DNA of 51,487 nt from Lachnospiraceae bacterium (GTDB lineage: Bacteria; Bacillota; Clostridia; Lachnospirales; Lachnospiraceae): contig JAFZNO010000054.1 in the NCBI GenBank assembly GCA_017552985.1, forward strand, positions 1 to 51,487, given 5' to 3'. Under the pieces are notes generated by a model. The model was not told the DNA's origin. It searched no databases and saw nothing but the letters and a program-made list of their open reading frames with translations. Within the stretch, counting starts at the first letter, position 1. Each line of letters begins with the position of its first letter. Below, piece by piece: positions 10,849 to 18,448 of the stretch. The translations under genes and the position numbers were made by a program.

Positions 10849-11364
10849 ATGTTTTTGGACCGTTTTTATCCCGATCACGAAGTGGATTCGGCTTATTCCA
10901 TCGACTATTCTGCCCAGTTTGCGGACGGCAAGCGTGCCATCATTTACGACGTAGACAACACGCTGGTACCCCACGGCGCGCCTGCAGACGAACGGGCCAA
11001 GGCCCTGTTTGCCACTCTCCATTCCCTGGGGTTTCGCACGCTCCTTCTCTCCAACAATAAGGAGCCGCGCGTAAAATCCTTCAGCGACGCCGTTGGCAGC
11101 ACCTATATTTACAAAGCCGGAAAGCCAGGCCAGGCCGGTTATCTCCGCGCCATGCAAAAGCTGGGCTCCACTCCGGCGACCACGCTCTTTGTCGGCGACC
11201 AGCTCTTCACGGACGTATGGGGTGCCAAAAAGGCCGGCATCGAAACCTACCTTGTAAAGCCCATCCATCCCAAGGAAGAGATCCAGATCGTACTCAAGCG
11301 CCGCCTGGAGCGCATCGTACTTCACTTCTATCACAAAAACGTGTCACGGGGACGTGTCTCCTGA
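10849..11364 (+). CDS. YqeG family HAD phosphatase
   Basis: This is a 171-residue HAD-superfamily phosphatase of the YqeG (IIIA) type; the substrate is uncertain. Motif I is IIYDVDNTLV, motif II is LLLSNNKEPR, motif III is near the lysine of GKPGQAGYLRAM and motif IV is FVGDQLFTDVWGAKKAGI. I chose the ATG at 10849 because GAGG lies upstream and the family N-terminus (MFLDRFYPD) starts here; the ATG at 10780 would lie upstream of the promoter -10 box. The last seven codons and the stop fall inside a palindromic repeat (11341-11367), so the native C-terminus may have been replaced by repeat sequence. In many Firmicutes yqeG precedes yqeH and aroE, but here it stands alone. Confidence 0.9.
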   Translation: MFLDRFYPDHEVDSAYSIDYSAQFADGKRAIIYDVDNTLVPHGAPADERAKALFATLHSLGFRTLLLSNNKEPRVKSFSDAVGSTYIYKAGKPGQAGYLRAMQKLGSTPATTLFVGDQLFTDVWGAKKAGIETYLVKPIHPKEEIQIVLKRRLERIVLHFYHKNVSRGRVS

Positions 11365-11406
11365 CACGTTTTTTGTGTCATGGGGACGTGTCTCTTGACA
11401 CGTTTT
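11337..11406 (+). repeat. tandem REP-like palindromes that also form a double terminator
   Basis: Two 27-base copies (11341-11367 and 11375-11401) sit 34 bases apart. Each starts GTGTCA, ends TGACAC and holds GGGGACGTGTCTC in between; they differ at two positions. With flanking AAC and GTT each folds into a stem followed by a T-run on the plus strand, so each could terminate yqeG. Similar GTGTCA-type elements are found scattered in Lachnospiraceae genomes, which I recall rather than tested. The first copy supplies the yqeG stop codon. Confidence 0.8.
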
Positions 11407-11413
11407 TGTTCTT

Positions 11414-12094
11414 CTATTGCTTGTTATAATATTTTATGCCGCTGTCTGGCAGGAAGTAGGTTCGCAGGTATCCGTCCGTGGAAACCACCACAAACTCATT
11501 GGTCTCCTCCAGATAGTAAATGTCATCCCCGTCTTCCTTTTCAATCTTGTGAAGCGCGTCCGGATTTGCGACCACTGCCGCAGCTGCCGCTTCATAATCC
11601 TTGGCATTGGCAAATCCCATGTCCTTACCGTGCTTCTCATAATGCTGGTCTAACAATTTCTTGCTTCGAAACTTTAAGGCCGTTTCCGCCGCTGCCGTAT
11701 TTTCCGGCTTCGGGGTTGCCGTAACCTTCGGCGTGGCCGTTGGCTTTGGCGTGGCCGTCGGTTTTGCCGTCTTTTCCGGCTTGGGCGTCGCCGTTGCCTT
11801 CGGCGTGGCGGTTGGCTTCTCCGTCGGTTTTACCGTCGCCGTAGGCTTAGGCGTCGGTTTCTCCGTCTTCTCCGGCTTAGGCGTCGCTGCCTTCGCCAAC
11901 TCCTCCGACGATCCCTCCGGCTCCACGGTTTCCAGGTTAACAACGTCCGGTTCCGCAGTCTCGAGCGTTACGACGTCCTGTTCGCTTCCGCCTCCGATCA
12001 GCCGGTCAAACAGAGGCGATCGGATAAACAACAGAAGGAGCACCAACAGGACCGTCACCACGGACCCTAATATCTTTTTGTTTTTGCCACTCAT
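11414..12094 (-). CDS. membrane-anchored protein with TPKP stalk and possible BECR-like C-terminal domain
   Basis: This 226-residue protein is the last gene of the AAA+ operon, 12 bases after the zinc-ribbon gene. A cytoplasmic MSGKNKK start leads to one membrane helix (about 9-24), an acidic segment, then about 70 residues of Thr/Pro/Lys/Ala repeats (TPKPTATPK, TEKPTATPKA) that form a stalk. The last 85 residues are a compact domain with LLDQHYEKHGKDMGF, a helix, then DDIYYLEETNEFVVV and GYLRTYFLP. The H-x3-H helix followed by a beta hairpin ending in a Thr is the pattern of BECR-fold RNases and toxin domains. That is an inference from pattern alone. The function is unknown. Confidence 0.75.
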   Translation of the reverse strand: MSGKNKKILGSVVTVLLVLLLLFIRSPLFDRLIGGGSEQDVVTLETAEPDVVNLETVEPEGSSEELAKAATPKPEKTEKPTPKPTATVKPTEKPTATPKATATPKPEKTAKPTATPKPTATPKVTATPKPENTAAAETALKFRSKKLLDQHYEKHGKDMGFANAKDYEAAAAAVVANPDALHKIEKEDGDDIYYLEETNEFVVVSTDGYLRTYFLPDSGIKYYNKQ

Positions 12095-12106
12095 CTTCCA
12101 ATCCTC

Positions 12107-13408
12107 TTACTGTTGCTTCGGCTTCTCCCGCTTTTCCGTCTTGCTGTACAGGAAGTTATCCTCGCGTCTTCCAAGCACTACGGAATTCTTATCCATATAG
12201 GCGCTTGCCGTGGTCTTCTGATGCACCGTATTCATGGAGCTCACCAAAGTTCCAACGCGAATGCCTCCCACAACGCCGGAGATCAAGATGCCTACGATCT
12301 CACGGACGATGTTGATCCCACCCTCAAAACCAATCGCAATGATCACGTTCGCAACCACAAGAGCGATCGCCATAGCGATGACAAACTGGATCACGGCCTT
12401 CTTCTTGTCGATGGGCAGGGCGCCAACCAGTTTACCCGTCTGACCGTTGATTCCAAATACGTATTTCTTTTCCTCATATTCCGTCGTCATCATCCAGACG
12501 GGCAGCATTGCATATTCCGCCCTGGCATTGGACAGATTGATCTTTTCGGAAGTCGCCTTGACCTCCTTATACTCAGAAACCTCCTGGCGCAGCCTGTCGC
12601 GGAACGAATTCTCAACGCGCTCGTTCGCCCTGGGCCTTGCGTCCACCTCCTGCACGTCGTATCGGTCTGCGAGATATCCGCTAAAGTAAGCTGCGTCATA
12701 TTGTACTGCCTTGCTCAAATCAAAAGGCTCAATGGAATCCATGACCGCGTCATCCATCTTCGTGGATGCGTCCACGGGAATCCTCTGGAAATCCATGGCT
12801 CCGCTGCGGATCATGCGATAATGATCCTTCTTCTCGTATTTGTATTGTGCGTCTTCCCAGTTCTGCGTCTTTACGCCCTCATAGAAAATCGTTCCGTCCG
12901 CATGACAGCTGTAAAGCCAGAAAGGAACGTACAGACCAGTGATGGAATCGATCCTGTTTCTGTCAACGAAGGCATCCGGCAAAAGAACTTTGCCCTTCGT
13001 AAACTCATTCAGCGCGTTCTTTGCCTTTTCCTTGGTGATGATAAAAGGCAGAACCACGTCCGGACGATACATGCCTTCAAACGAGGTCTTGATAATGGAG
13101 AAATTACCACAGTACGGACATTCCGTGGCAGCCGTGTTCTCGTCAGCCACCATCTGCGCGCCACAGTCAGGACAACTGTAACCCGTGATCTTGCCGTCTT
13201 CATCCGTGATCATGGAGGAGGAAGAACTGGAAGTCTGCCAGTTCATGTCCGACCCGCCCGCCATCTCTTCCTTTGCCTTTTCCTCGGCAATAATCTGCTC
13301 CATGGCGAACGTAGACTCACAGTAAGGACAGCTCATCATTTCCTTTTCGCCGTCATAAACCAATTTTGCACCACAACATGGACAAGTAAACTGATTCAGA
13401 TCTTTCAT
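12107..13408 (-). CDS. double zinc-ribbon membrane protein (TFIIB-type ribbon)
   Basis: This is a 433-residue protein. Two zinc ribbons fill the N-terminus: CPCC at residue about 9 with CPYC near 28, then CPDC with CPYC between about 74 and 97. A soluble domain of about 220 residues follows (YVPFWLYSCHADG, YEEKKYVFGINGQTGKLVG). Two C-terminal membrane helices (VIQFVIAMAIALVVANVIIA and IVGILISGVVGGI) then lead to a short tail. Such proteins are often annotated as TFIIB-type zinc ribbon-containing. They are probably membrane-tethered cytoplasmic factors; no catalytic motif is visible. It follows the TelA-like gene by 18 bases in the same operon. Confidence 0.8.
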   Translation of the reverse strand: MKDLNQFTCPCCGAKLVYDGEKEMMSCPYCESTFAMEQIIAEEKAKEEMAGGSDMNWQTSSSSSSMITDEDGKITGYSCPDCGAQMVADENTAATECPYCGNFSIIKTSFEGMYRPDVVLPFIITKEKAKNALNEFTKGKVLLPDAFVDRNRIDSITGLYVPFWLYSCHADGTIFYEGVKTQNWEDAQYKYEKKDHYRMIRSGAMDFQRIPVDASTKMDDAVMDSIEPFDLSKAVQYDAAYFSGYLADRYDVQEVDARPRANERVENSFRDRLRQEVSEYKEVKATSEKINLSNARAEYAMLPVWMMTTEYEEKKYVFGINGQTGKLVGALPIDKKKAVIQFVIAMAIALVVANVIIAIGFEGGINIVREIVGILISGVVGGIRVGTLVSSMNTVHQKTTASAYMDKNSVVLGRREDNFLYSKTEKREKPKQQ

Positions 13409-13426
13409 CCTTCGTTTCCCCCAATA

Positions 13427-14179
13427 TTAGTTTGTATGATTTCTCGCCGTAAACAGCGAACCAAAACCACCATTCATTTTACCACGTTTGCTTCCTGGTT
13501 GCAAAGACAACGTGAGCTCATCTTCGGCATCATCCCATCCGTCGCAAAGCTTTTCCATTTCCTTGACGCTGTTTCGGATCAGTGCCTTCGTCTCGTTTAC
13601 GGTCTTCTGGCCCGTATCCATGGAAATGCGGTTACTCACCAGCGGGATTAGATTCATTTGCACGTTCCAAATTTTCTCGGCAATCGAAAAACAGTTATCT
13701 TCCGCGAGCTTAAGCTGCGGCGAAAAGCTTCTCGCCACGGCCTGGGTCGTTCTCAGCTCCTGCGTTCTCTTTTTCAGCGTGCTCTCAAGGGCATCCCCCG
13801 CATCCTTTTCCAGAGCCGCCTTCTTAAATCCGGTCTTGGAAAACGTATCCGCATCCTGAATCTTTCCATCAATCTCCAGAAGATAAACCTCGTTGACTTC
13901 ACGAAGCTCCTTTAGAAGATTACCTTCCTTCAAAAGGTCAATGCGGATTTCCAAAAAGCGCCGCCGGATCTCGTCCAGACGTTGCTCCATCTGTAACGTG
14001 GTGCGTACGTCCGCGTCACTCGCCATGGCAAGGATCTCATCAAAGAACCCAAAGACCTCCGAGAAATCCCGCTGCTTCATAATGTCCGCCGAAACCTTAT
14101 TTAATTCAGCTATTTTTTGTTGTACGCCAAGTCCATAATTTAATATGGACGATACATCCTTTACGTCAATGCCGTTCAT
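13427..14179 (-). CDS. TelA-like (toxic anion resistance family) protein, short form
   Basis: This 250-residue, mostly helical cytoplasmic protein resembles the TelA/KlaA family. The segments LLKEGNLLKELREVNEVYLLEIDGKI and AEKIWNVQMNLIPLVSNRISM match the positions where TelA proteins carry their conserved Asn-x3-Tyr/Phe and Gln-x3-Leu-Ile-Pro-Leu signatures. TelA proteins are usually over 320 residues, so this is a short version lacking part of the helical N-terminus. TelA was linked to tellurite resistance, and family members recur with stress AAA+ systems. The start overlaps the upstream gene by 4 bases (ATGA), showing tight coupling. The family call is by eye. Confidence 0.6.
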   Translation of the reverse strand: MNGIDVKDVSSILNYGLGVQQKIAELNKVSADIMKQRDFSEVFGFFDEILAMASDADVRTTLQMEQRLDEIRRRFLEIRIDLLKEGNLLKELREVNEVYLLEIDGKIQDADTFSKTGFKKAALEKDAGDALESTLKKRTQELRTTQAVARSFSPQLKLAEDNCFSIAEKIWNVQMNLIPLVSNRISMDTGQKTVNETKALIRNSVKEMEKLCDGWDDAEDELTLSLQPGSKRGKMNGGFGSLFTARNHTN

Positions 14180-15078
14180 CTATACTCCTTCGCGTAATCC
14201 GAGTATTTCGGTACCTTGATCTCTTTCGTCAGATGCAAATATTCGAAAAATGCGTCTGCGTCCCTGTATAAATTCCTTCCACGGATCCCAATCTCATGCG
14301 GTGACTGGATCAGGATCTTGTCTTCCCCAATGTTTAAACACTTTCTCACCAGCTTCTCCGGCAGGACGCCTCCGTAACCCACGCCCCATTTCTCGTGGAA
14401 CGGCATGGATTCCTTCACCCTGACCAAAAGCCGCCGGATAAATTCCTTTCCGCAGAGCGGATAATAGCATTTACCCACGTTCAGCACTTCTCCTGGCTTT
14501 TTCAACTGGATGTCCGCAATAAAGATCTCATTGTACAGGCTGCTGGCTTCAAACGCATACAGGTTCACGCCAATGCTGTGCTGTTCAAACAAACTGATCA
14601 GATTGAGGGTCAAAATGCCGCGGTGACGGATCTCATTCTCCGTTGTGTCGCCGCTGTAAGCCAAGTTTATGTAGACGTCTATAAACTTCTTCTCCTTGGC
14701 CTTATCCAACCGGTACATGGTCTTTGGCGTTCCCGCCACAAAGTTCGGCACGTTCGGTCTCGAACCCACGATGGCAGGAACGGATCTTCGCACGTTCTGC
14801 GCCTTAACGTTCGTCTTCTCCAAATCCTTTTTCAGCTGCATGAACAAAGGAAAACCTTCCGCGTATCCGCCGTGGCAATACGCGATCGCCTGTTCCAGCG
14901 GAGCGCCGGCAAATTTCTCCGGCATGTAAAGACTCTTTTGCGACGGGAAAATACGCTCATTCACCGGCGGGTCCGACTTTAGGTAAAGTTCTAGTTCCGT
15001 CAGGGAATGAAAGTCTATCCGGTAGACGTTATATAAATTGTTGTCATCCGAAAACGGATACGTAGGCCTTACCTGCAT
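14176..15078 (-). CDS. unknown protein, possible VWA-like partner of the AAA+ ATPase
   Basis: This 300-residue soluble protein shares a 1-base overlap with the AAA+ gene (TAATG) and a 4-base overlap with the TelA-like gene. The N-terminal half has HSLTELELYLKSDPP and AIAYCHGGYAEG. The middle has KFIDVYINLAYSGDTTENEI, then RHRGILTLNLISLFEQHSIG and VNLYAFEAS, a strand-helix-strand pattern like a von Willebrand A core. No MIDAS DxSxS motif is visible. Similar pairs of an AAA+ ATPase with a partner of this layout (DUF7192-like) occur in phages and plasmids, as I recall. MoxR/CbbQ ATPases usually work on VWA partners, so a client-handling role is a reasonable guess. Confidence 0.5.
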   Translation of the reverse strand: MQVRPTYPFSDDNNLYNVYRIDFHSLTELELYLKSDPPVNERIFPSQKSLYMPEKFAGAPLEQAIAYCHGGYAEGFPLFMQLKKDLEKTNVKAQNVRRSVPAIVGSRPNVPNFVAGTPKTMYRLDKAKEKKFIDVYINLAYSGDTTENEIRHRGILTLNLISLFEQHSIGVNLYAFEASSLYNEIFIADIQLKKPGEVLNVGKCYYPLCGKEFIRRLLVRVKESMPFHEKWGVGYGGVLPEKLVRKCLNIGEDKILIQSPHEIGIRGRNLYRDADAFFEYLHLTKEIKVPKYSDYAKEYR

Positions 15079-17342
15079 TACGTTCTCTTACCTCTTTTTC
15101 TAATGCGTTCCACTTCATCTGCAAAAATCTGATAAATGCCATACGACAAGTCACTTTTCTTGATCAGCTTAGCGAGTTCTTCCTTCAGGAAGCCAAGGTA
15201 TTCCGGCTCCTTCGTCTGAACAAACTCATAATTCATGATCTTTTGCGGCGTAAAACTTGTGTCATCCATATATCTCTTGATTCTGAATGCGTCTCTTGTC
15301 GTGAAGATACCCTGTGCCGGCACGCCGCAGGCTTCCTCCCAGCGATCCGTCGCCTTACGGAAGGCGCAGGCAAACTCGAACCAGTCAGGATAGTTGGACA
15401 AAATGGCTTGCTCCACGCGGTTGTCATAATCCACGTACACGGGGATCATACGCTGCTGGACGGACTCCTCGATCTTTTCACGAGTGCTGTAATTGACGTC
15501 CGCACCGCTTCCGTCCGTGTTACCTGCCGCGATCACGCGGAAATTCGCGTGTCTCTCCACGCGCTCACCGCCCGGGAAGCAATAGTTGGACCGCTCCTGA
15601 TTTGACAGGAAGGAGTTCAACTTGACGGTAGCCTTGGCATTACCATTGTCCAACTCATCGCAGAATGCGATGCCGCCGTATTTATACAAGCGATAAAAAT
15701 TGGACTCACTGTAATCTCCCATGGCCGTCACGTAGCCAAGGATGTCATATTCCTCATTGATGTAACCAATATCAGAACAATCCAGGCCCAGGATCTCACC
15801 GATCTGGTTTACCATGAAGGTTTTTCCACAGCCGGAAGGTCCGATCAAATAAGGATTGACGTTTTCCATGACTGCCGTGATCACGTCGTCAAAGGCTTCG
15901 TGGAAAATTTCACCCTCCTCCATCCTTCTCTTTTTCTCCGCCTGAACCATGGCATAACGCTCCGTAAAAGGAATCCTTCTGTCGAGAAGAGGATTCACGG
16001 GCGGAATAATCCGGTGTTCCTTCTTTGCAGCTGCTGCAGAAGATACTTGAACGGATGCCTGCGCGCCCGTCCCGCTGACTGCCGCCTTGTATTCTTCGGA
16101 GCGGCTCTTCGCGCCCTTCGTCGGAGCCTGTACGGCCTCCTGCTGCGCCGGCGCCTCAGCTTCCTGAACGTTCACGGATTCTTTTTGCAATCTCTCGATC
16201 ATGGAATCGTTCAGCATGGTAAGCTTTTCGATCTTTTGAAGAATGGCCTCGTCCATGCGGGAGTTTTCCACAAATTTCTGGATCTTGTCGTCATCCTCCG
16301 CCACCTTGCGAAGTCTTTTGATCACGCCGTCCGCATCCCTTCCGATCGCAGCTATGTCAGCCGATGCCGTAGCCGTGATCGCCTTCGCCTGGGACTTGTA
16401 CTTCGTGAGTTCTGATTCCGCCTCAGAGAACATCTGCTTTAAGAACAGATCCTTTTCCATCAGAATGGATTTCCTTTGGATCTCCTCGCATTCCCTCATG
16501 GCGTCTTCCAAAGCAGTCTTGGCATTCTCCGTCTTTGCATCCAGATAGTCAGACATATTCTGCTGGATCGTCTTAGACTTTCCGTCCATTTCATCCGTGA
16601 TGCGTTTGATCTTCTGGCACCTGCGGTCCAAGAGTTCCAACAGGTTCTTGCCGTTTTCGATCGTGAGTTCCGCCTTGCTGACGTTCTTTTCCACCTCTGC
16701 CAGTCTCACCGGATCCACGTCATAAACGCCATTGTTCTTGCGCAGCTTCGCTATCTCATCCTGCATGACTGCATCATAATTGCTCAGCCTTGTTACGTTC
16801 AGGCGGCCAACCACCTTTAACAGATTAGCCAGATAGCCCATGTCTTCCACAAAGTATTCCCTTGCTTCCAGTCCATAAATGCGGATCTTGTCAAAAATGG
16901 GCTTTGAGTTCTTAAGGTTGTTGATCACCTGCGCGATGCACAGGTAATTCTTTTTGTCACTGAAGGTGGAATACAGGCCTAAGTCAAACAATTCCTTTGC
17001 GATCAGGCCGTCGATTCCGATCAACGCCTTAAAGATGGCAACCGTATTGTCAAAATCAGGCGTCTTTTCTCCCAGAATGAAAAGATCACTATAGACGGCT
17101 TCCGCGTTATGGATCAGCCCGGGTAACGCACTCGCAAGGCGCGTGCCCTGCCGGATGGTCTCCACCACCTCCACGTACAACATCAGCGGCTTTATGTCCG
17201 GCGTGCTTTTCCCGTCTCTGATCCTGTCCAGCTCAAGAATCAGGGTTTCTATGTCTTCCGACTTTTTATATCTCTTTAAACCATCAATGACCTTTCCAAG
17301 TCTTCTCTGCGCTTCCGCTTTATTTTCCCAATAATTTGCCAT
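15078..17342 (-). CDS. MoxR/CbbQ-type AAA+ ATPase with long coiled-coil N-terminal half
   Basis: This is a 754-residue protein. Residues about 1-400 are helical and coiled-coil-rich (KRYKKSEDIETLILELDRI, repeated Lys/Glu heptads). A variable, charged linker of about 70 residues follows. The C-terminal AAA+ module has Walker A GPSGCGKT (501-508), Walker B GIAFCDELDN (D562-E563), sensor 1 RVIAAGNTDGSG and an arginine-finger region VQQRMIPVYVDYD. This is the MoxR/CbbQ/GvpN branch of chaperone-like ATPases. I chose the ATG at 17342, 5 bases after the previous stop and with GGGGAAT upstream; the ATG at 17384 would give a 37-base overlap. It is the core of the operon. Confidence 0.85.
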   Translation of the reverse strand: MANYWENKAEAQRRLGKVIDGLKRYKKSEDIETLILELDRIRDGKSTPDIKPLMLYVEVVETIRQGTRLASALPGLIHNAEAVYSDLFILGEKTPDFDNTVAIFKALIGIDGLIAKELFDLGLYSTFSDKKNYLCIAQVINNLKNSKPIFDKIRIYGLEAREYFVEDMGYLANLLKVVGRLNVTRLSNYDAVMQDEIAKLRKNNGVYDVDPVRLAEVEKNVSKAELTIENGKNLLELLDRRCQKIKRITDEMDGKSKTIQQNMSDYLDAKTENAKTALEDAMRECEEIQRKSILMEKDLFLKQMFSEAESELTKYKSQAKAITATASADIAAIGRDADGVIKRLRKVAEDDDKIQKFVENSRMDEAILQKIEKLTMLNDSMIERLQKESVNVQEAEAPAQQEAVQAPTKGAKSRSEEYKAAVSGTGAQASVQVSSAAAAKKEHRIIPPVNPLLDRRIPFTERYAMVQAEKKRRMEEGEIFHEAFDDVITAVMENVNPYLIGPSGCGKTFMVNQIGEILGLDCSDIGYINEEYDILGYVTAMGDYSESNFYRLYKYGGIAFCDELDNGNAKATVKLNSFLSNQERSNYCFPGGERVERHANFRVIAAGNTDGSGADVNYSTREKIEESVQQRMIPVYVDYDNRVEQAILSNYPDWFEFACAFRKATDRWEEACGVPAQGIFTTRDAFRIKRYMDDTSFTPQKIMNYEFVQTKEPEYLGFLKEELAKLIKKSDLSYGIYQIFADEVERIRKRGKRT

Positions 17343-17347
17343 CTCTC

Positions 17348-18448
17348 TTATTCCCCTGCATATTCCAATTTTCTTAGGTAACACCTGTCGGCATATTCCG
17401 CCGCATATCTTGCGGACCTGGGATATTCCATGTCAAGGAACCGTAGCTCCGTGACGTCTTCCCTCTCATAAAACCGAAAGGCAAATTGACCAAACAACGT
17501 GTCTTCTCCGCCCTGGATCGAAAGCTTTTTGATACATACGCCGCGGCTGATCGTGATGCCAAGTCCGTCGTTCGAATAGACCAGATACGCTTTCCCGTCT
17601 GCCACGGCCTTGTAGACGTATCCGCCCCACGGTATCACCGACGCCTTCCATTCAGCGTTTTCTCCTGCCGTCAGCTTTCTGACGCATTCCGTCGGTGAAC
17701 CCCACGGTGCTTCCTCCAGCTCCCGGTTGATCTCGATCAACGTCTGATCCTGATCCTTCAGCACGTGGGAAAACGTCATTTTCTCTCCCCGTACGTTGAT
17801 CCTCAGGGTCCCCTGATAACAATAGTATTGATCGTAATACGTCGCCGCGATCCCGTCCATCCCAAAGGAAACGTTGACCTTTAAGACGTTTCCGGGCTTT
17901 AGTACGTTGCAGACCGTAACGTCATAAACGTCTCCGGCCATCAGGCTGATCCGGTACGGAAATCTATGCTGCTTACCGCCGGTCACCCCGCTCAGGATTC
18001 CTTTATCAAACCATTGCTGCACAAGTTCATCAAATTGAATGGCACCTTCATCTCCGCCATATAACGCTTTCATGGCGTAAGTGACGACCGGCATGACGTA
18101 GACGTAGGTAAAAGCCTTTGGCAAAAACTTCGGTTCCTCGTTCTCCTCATATTCCGGCAAGCGTTCCATCAGGTCTTCCCTGCAAAATTCATTTGCCTCC
18201 CCAAGGATCCGTTTGGTCTCGTCATCCGTGATGATCTCGCCTGTTTCAGCCTCCTCTTCATATACCTTCGCGATCCGGTCCAGCAATGCCGGAAAATATC
18301 TGTCCGCACTGCAATAATTCATGGTCTCGTCCGCATAATAGACCATCAGGCCCATGAGGGGCGTCTCCCCCTCAAACAGCGGATAGATCTTGACCATTTT
18401 TAAATCCCGGATGGTCTGAATCTGATTTAGTATTTCATTTCCGACCAT
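17348..18448 (-). CDS. unknown soluble protein, AAA+ operon
   Basis: I do not recognise this 366-residue protein. It has no signal peptide or membrane helix. The N-terminal third is acidic and helical (VYEEEAETGEIITDDETKRI). The C-terminal two thirds look beta-rich with many aromatic residues (YDQYYCYQGTLRINV, IPWGGYVYKAVADGKAYLVY, GITISRGVCIKKL). The ATG at 18448 has a perfect AGGAGG 5-7 bases upstream, better than the ATG at 18463. It overlaps the end of rlmD by 14 bases and ends 5 bases before the AAA+ ATPase gene, so it probably acts with that ATPase as an adaptor or substrate-side component. Confidence 0.7.
   Translation of the reverse strand: MVGNEILNQIQTIRDLKMVKIYPLFEGETPLMGLMVYYADETMNYCSADRYFPALLDRIAKVYEEEAETGEIITDDETKRILGEANEFCREDLMERLPEYEENEEPKFLPKAFTYVYVMPVVTYAMKALYGGDEGAIQFDELVQQWFDKGILSGVTGGKQHRFPYRISLMAGDVYDVTVCNVLKPGNVLKVNVSFGMDGIAATYYDQYYCYQGTLRINVRGEKMTFSHVLKDQDQTLIEINRELEEAPWGSPTECVRKLTAGENAEWKASVIPWGGYVYKAVADGKAYLVYSNDGLGITISRGVCIKKLSIQGGEDTLFGQFAFRFYEREDVTELRFLDMEYPRSARYAAEYADRCYLRKLEYAGE

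Follow-up and report, generated by a model that had tools for sequence, protein, structure and literature searches.

A rare, conserved four-gene set combining an AAA+ ATPase, a DUF7192 protein and a TelA-family protein in Lachnospiraceae

Architecture of the locus

We analysed a stretch of 51,487 nucleotides from a Lachnospiraceae bacterium (assembly GCA_017552985.1, contig JAFZNO010000054.1, positions 1 to 51,487), called the window throughout, in which six open reading frames (ORFs), all on the minus strand, run from 18448 to 11414. The genes are labelled A, B, C, D, E and F in transcription order, A-B-C-D is called the core, and L and G numbers denote the comparison loci and genomes that were fetched. 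Our principal result is that the conserved system consists of the four core genes, a real, rare and tightly conserved set carried by some gut and rumen bacteria. The features of the locus are the following.

17348 to 18448, minus strand: gene A, 366 amino acids, soluble, helices followed by many beta strands; first core gene, without an assigned family
15078 to 17342, minus strand: gene B, 754 amino acids, AAA+ ATPase; N-terminal half (about residues 1-400) helical, followed by an AAA module of the CobS/MoxR type at the C terminus
14176 to 15078, minus strand: gene C, 300 amino acids, DUF7192 protein, likely to be a degenerate, vWA-like partner for B
13427 to 14179, minus strand: gene D, 250 amino acids, shortened TelA-family protein
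12107 to 13408, minus strand: gene E, 433 amino acids, two CxxC motifs resembling zinc ribbons near the N terminus, hydrophobic segments towards the C terminus; outside the core
11414 to 12094, minus strand: gene F, 226 amino acids, hydrophobic N-terminal segment, stalk rich in Pro, Thr and Lys, and small C-terminal region; outside the core
11346 to 11409, no strand assigned: two tandem hairpin copies followed by T runs, between a convergent HAD-hydrolase gene and F

Reading of the junctions confirmed the six genes, their layout and the close spacing described in the initial annotation: A and B are separated by 5 bases, B overlaps C by 1 base and C overlaps D by 4, while gaps of 18 and 12 bases precede E and F, respectively. 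The start ATG of B lies at 17342, and the gene was analysed as 15078-17345, which includes one extra upstream codon. Comparison of the window with L003 revealed purifying selection on all six genes, with ratios of nonsynonymous to synonymous substitution rates (dN/dS) of 0.028-0.155 and a value of 0.028 for E; in the comparison with L005, three of the six genes had a saturated dS. A hydropathy scan found no hydrophobic membrane stretch in A-D of the window, two overlapping stretches in E (residues 335-368 and 365-392) and one in F (residues 4-34).

At the upstream end, the ribosome site and start of A (18435-18448) lie inside the last codons of a methyltransferase ORF, an overlap of 14 bases that, judged from the sequence, suggests translational coupling. 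Since A starts within the end of this ORF, the transcript may begin further upstream. In L003 the methyltransferase gene and A are separated by 53 bases.

A four-gene core conserved across Lachnospiraceae

To define the set of loci, we combined several sources: a contig scan with C yielded eight loci, a draw of family genomes three more (G067, G486 and G672), the window's genus nine besides the window genome, and the genus of G067 a further three. All 23 fetched loci were examined, and 19 usable ones plus the window make up the 20 loci reported here, whose contigs span the core. The same contig had been fetched twice in three pairs (L004/L075, L006/L076 and L010/L077), each counted once, and L007 was left out because its contig starts inside B, leaving the end of B, C and D. 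The core of L079 was read by tblastn. Core profiles were built from at most nine of these loci, and L078 to L086 were not used in them. At the contig start of L007, an IS200-like transposase ORF (142-612, read by eye) precedes the B fragment, so that B may be interrupted there or the contig misassembled.

A, B, C and D are consecutive, in the same order and on the same strand, in 20 of 20 loci. Their chromosomal settings, with ORFs read by eye, differ and include hydrogenase-like genes (L008, L009), scpA/scpB-like genes (L010), polC- and htpG-like genes (L020, L021 and L084-L086), an EF-G-like gene (L022) and others. An intact core among differing neighbours indicates that these four genes move together. 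The part of the initial annotation that grouped a MoxR-class ATPase with its possible vWA-like partner and with a protein of the TelA family was borne out, in that they form a conserved set. Pairwise distances of the A-D proteins over seven loci were also correlated (r 0.73 to 0.95, values reached in 2-24 of 5040 permutations), which we read as shared history and not as interaction.

The occurrence of the core is patchy. It was found in 10 of 101 genomes of the window's genus and in 5 of 6 of that of G067. Family draws contained C in 2 of 150 genomes and B in 4 of 397, all four with the full A-B-C-D; a class draw contained C in 2 of 391 genomes, one of them on a short contig that appears phage-like by eye from its recA-like, deaminase and resolvase-like ORFs. 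The phylum draw gave 1 of 299 genomes with the C profile and likewise 1 of 299 with PF23822, and a PF23822 search of 14 control genomes returned no match. These draws overlap and many of the genomes are incomplete.

Genes E and F lie outside the core

The initial annotation had proposed a six-gene system. We rejected this candidate, as E and F follow D in only five of the 20 core loci (the window, L003, L004, L005 and L006) and E-type genes are common elsewhere. Such genes were found in 104 of 150 family genomes, some in multiple copies, mostly in genomes without C (C itself was present in 2 of 150 in a similar draw), and the window genome itself gave five matches. In all four genomes opened among those with the nearest E relatives (55-59% identity), E is found in a different context, with neither the core nor F. 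Given these E-type genes, we consider E-F a lineage-specific extension of the transcript. The separation of the genes in related genomes, named beforehand as the finding that would speak against a system, was therefore observed for E and F but not for A-B-C-D. The idea of a membrane-linked machine is weakened as well, because it rests on E and F, outside the core, and in the window none of A-D is predicted to contain a membrane segment.

In Pfam, E matched zinc ribbons only below threshold, near residues 3-40 and 77-102, and F gave no credible match. Matches of E (1.4e-4) and F (9.3e-5) to PADLOC models run through the zinc ribbon and low complexity. E might conceivably be a relative of B. subtilis YdjG, from the pspA-ydjGHI operon; the excerpts consulted of the paper on that operon make no mention of zinc ribbons. 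In L083, a locus of the window's genus, the core is directly preceded (805-2017) by a different zinc-ribbon-like ORF (263 amino acids) and a small hydrophobic one, so zinc-ribbon neighbours may recur.

Downstream of F, a hairpin of 13 pairs occupies 11380-11409, and the element (GGGGACGTGTCTC...GACACGTTTTT), in tandem at 11346-11409, has 11 matches in the genome with at most two mismatches, against none for the reversed control; it is a dispersed terminator-like repeat. By Pfam, the six genes of the window are flanked by the methyltransferase on one side and the HAD hydrolase on the other.

The ATPase B and its DUF7192 partner C

B matches AAA_5 in Pfam (36.1 bits, cut-off 22) and, in PHROGs, the CobS-like family phrog_249, labelled 'porphyrin biosynthesis' (E 1.2e-34). 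Walker A (GPSGCGKT) and Walker B (FCDELD) are intact in all 15 members read and sensor-1 (AAGNT) in 14 of them, motifs that identify B, at the sequence level, as a MoxR/CobS-type AAA+ module. Further features of this clade are a helix-2 insert and a pre-sensor-2 insert (excerpts of PMC13036017). A sequence search of solved structures returned a single match, a fly helicase (E 0.0016). Two cysteines, C506 in Walker A (window 15823-15830) and C562 beside Walker B (15655-15672), are invariant in the bacterial ATPases and absent from three aligned phage ATPases. In NorQ, according to the excerpted source, a Cys46-Cys68 disulphide blocks ATP binding; C523 of B, the closest in spacing to the second of these cysteines, is lost in three of seven aligned members. 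A redox switch acting through the P-loop cysteine of B is thus speculation by analogy.

C carries DUF7192 (PF23822; 64.7 bits, cut-off 27), a family over its cut-off in all five core C proteins scanned, and matches phrog_1909 in PHROGs (E 2.7e-23). The word DUF7192 was found in no paper of the open-access literature searched. The best structural neighbour of C is the vWA domain of NorD, a weak match obtained with a low-confidence model. The canonical DxSxS motif of the metal ion-dependent adhesion site (MIDAS) is absent; its position, placed by hand without a residue-level structural alignment, reads N/D-x-A/T/S/G-x-variable in nine core and four phage proteins. The best match of C to solved structures by sequence was a penicillin-binding protein (E 0.05), judged to be chance. 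We regard C as a probable partner of B, vWA-like but degenerate.

Both proteins have relatives in phages. A tblastn search with C retrieved 260 matching records from a set of 50,697 phage entries; 236 come from phages that bear the name Staphylococcus. Four phages were opened. In Staph1N and in an Enterococcus phage the ATPase gene directly adjoins the DUF7192 gene, and one small ORF lies between the two in Lactobacillus phage 3-521. Mycobacterium phage LeBron carries two DUF7192-like genes (L060 2825-5164 and L039 3722-4564): gp127 (DUF7192, 246.7 bits) adjoins the AAA_5 ATPase gp128, whereas gp120, the original match, has no ATPase neighbour. The core profiles scored 85-120 bits (B) and 19-79 bits (C) against these phage proteins. 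No relative of A or of D/TelA was found in the stretches opened in the four phages, and scans of viral contigs with the C and B alignments returned no relative. On these homologies, the two pairs, B-C and the phage ATPase-DUF7192, share ancestry.

The TelA-family protein D and the first gene A

In the window, D reaches TelA (PF05816) with 30.5 bits against a cut-off of 30, and only 18.4 bits, below the cut-off, in the genome search with PF05816. Among the proteins at the same position, 9 of 11 exceed the cut-off, the strongest with 228, 212 and 204 bits, and those of L010 (20.3 bits) and L078 (26.3 bits) fall under it. Elsewhere, the window genome also encodes a full-length TelA (416 bits), next to a PF10112 (XpaC-type) gene. 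In a tree of D proteins, the window D falls within a supported group made up of seven short TelA proteins, and the full-length TelA of the genome groups with L022 and L080-L083 with weak support (85/87); since the root is a midpoint root and long branches were flagged, no direction is claimed.

A is the first gene in all 20 core loci. No family passed the cut-off in Pfam, NCBIfam or PADLOC, none was credible in PHROGs, and Foldseek gave no match at E <= 0.001 with its structure model, whose predicted local distance difference test (pLDDT) score was 68.7.

Comparison with known systems

An NCBIfam scan of the six proteins gave nothing over a cut-off and PADLOC no convincing match (for B, mad8 at E 0.0018 and DruC at 0.016). 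The initial annotation had named no known system of its exact composition; no account of the four-gene set was found in the open-access literature searched.

The closest parallels lie among MoxR-type ATPases with a vWA partner. As in NorQ-NorD, a MoxR-class AAA+ protein stands beside one that, in structure, best matches the NorD vWA domain; unlike that pair, the core lacks nitric oxide reductase genes, C lacks DxSxS, the N-terminal half of B is long and helical, and a conserved TelA and A are added. NorQ is a hexamer whose pore takes a finger of NorD, and it has been proposed that NorD and the client are twisted as NorQ turns over ATP (excerpts of PMC13036017). The CobS-CobT-like pairs of tailed phages share with the core the matches of B to phrog_249 and of C to phrog_1909/DUF7192, and in four phages the ATPase and DUF7192 genes are adjacent or have a single small ORF between them, but the phage loci opened have no homologue of A or TelA and the aligned phage ATPases lack the N-terminal half of B. 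The MoxR-vWA ternary conflict systems, in the sections of PMC7159879 available to us, likewise join a MoxR-vWA pair to a dedicated further component, and some of their vWA domains, like C, are without metal-binding aspartates (PMC7159879, same sections). However, B has no match at E <= 1 to Pfam bpMoxR (PF20030), the MoxR type of the beta-propeller subsystem, which is one beside the VMAP, iSTAND and FtsH subsystems; A is without a family, and the effector domains of those systems were not seen among the six proteins.

With the XpaC-TelA pair the core shares the TelA family, but D is shorter and linked to an ATPase, and none of the six proteins matches PF10112. The resemblance to Ter stress systems, raised in the initial annotation, comes down to TelA: no TerC, TerD, TerB or other Ter gene was present among the six proteins or the ten flanking ORFs scanned (E <= 1e-5).

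Proposed mechanism and alternative explanations

We lean towards the view that A-B-C-D encodes a dedicated AAA+ remodelling machine in which B is the ring, C the adaptor, and D and A the client or partner. B would assemble into an ATP-driven ring of the CobS/MoxR type, and C, as a vWA-like adaptor whose metal site is degenerate, would dock on it as NorD does on NorQ. The ATP cycle of the ring would then pull or twist a bound client, most likely D, a TelA specialised for this system, which could alternatively be a partner; A would be a second, system-specific partner. D, together with A, would either be acted on or anchor the action. By analogy with TelA elsewhere, the outcome could perhaps be envelope-stress tolerance: a Listeria mutant of the TelA gene was more sensitive to nisin and tellurite, as described in the portion of PMC12791056 consulted. 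In one lineage the transcript would additionally carry the unrelated zinc-ribbon/membrane pair E-F.

We consider it unlikely, but worth weighing, that the core is instead a domesticated phage module in which B-C keep the phage-related job that they have in phages (for instance assembly, host takeover or interference with incoming phages), TelA and A being later additions. Phage proteins (260 records) are the closest outside relatives of C in the collections searched, the only other class-wide C match (391 genomes) is on the phage-like contig, the distribution is patchy, and for the TelA of jumbo phages a role against superinfecting phages has been suggested (PMC7824862, in the excerpt seen). 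Against this, the core sits between housekeeping-like genes, assigned by Pfam at the window flanks and by eye elsewhere, and PADLOC offers no convincing match.

Rather improbable, in our judgement, is a chaperone for cofactor or metal insertion, comparable to CobS-CobT or NorQ-NorD, serving a metalloenzyme encoded elsewhere with D as a scaffold only. The CobS-like character of B (phrog_249), the NorD structural match of C, its best, and the invariant C204 and C209 of C (9 of 9) would fit such a role; yet the conserved set includes no metalloenzyme or cofactor gene, an iron-only hydrogenase-like gene lies just upstream in L008 and L009 only (by eye) and not in the other settings, and the conserved TelA is left unexplained. 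Finally, a six-gene membrane-linked machine with E and F as integral parts, already disfavoured, seems very improbable despite the short same-strand spacing behind D and the conserved E-F adjacency in five loci (E dN/dS 0.028), as in 15 of 20 loci neither E nor F adjoins the core and E-type genes occur elsewhere, without F beside them, in four of four genomes opened.

Returning to the remodelling machine, we see the core as a variation on the MoxR-vWA principle, with a combination of TelA and DUF7192 for which we found no description. More tentatively, TelA itself might be the client of the AAA+ ring, such that a self-contained MoxR/vWA-like machine, built around the ATPase-DUF7192 pair shared with tailed phages, would remodel a specialised TelA at the membrane surface and DUF7192 would represent a new class of AAA+ adaptor, in the core and in these phages. 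The core joins three loose ends, namely the MoxR-vWA principle, the phage family DUF7192 and the widespread TelA. Should D be acted on by B-C, the 'porphyrin biosynthesis' label of the phage proteins would be misleading for DUF7192-linked ATPases, and this small four-gene system would offer a tractable model for the action of TelA.
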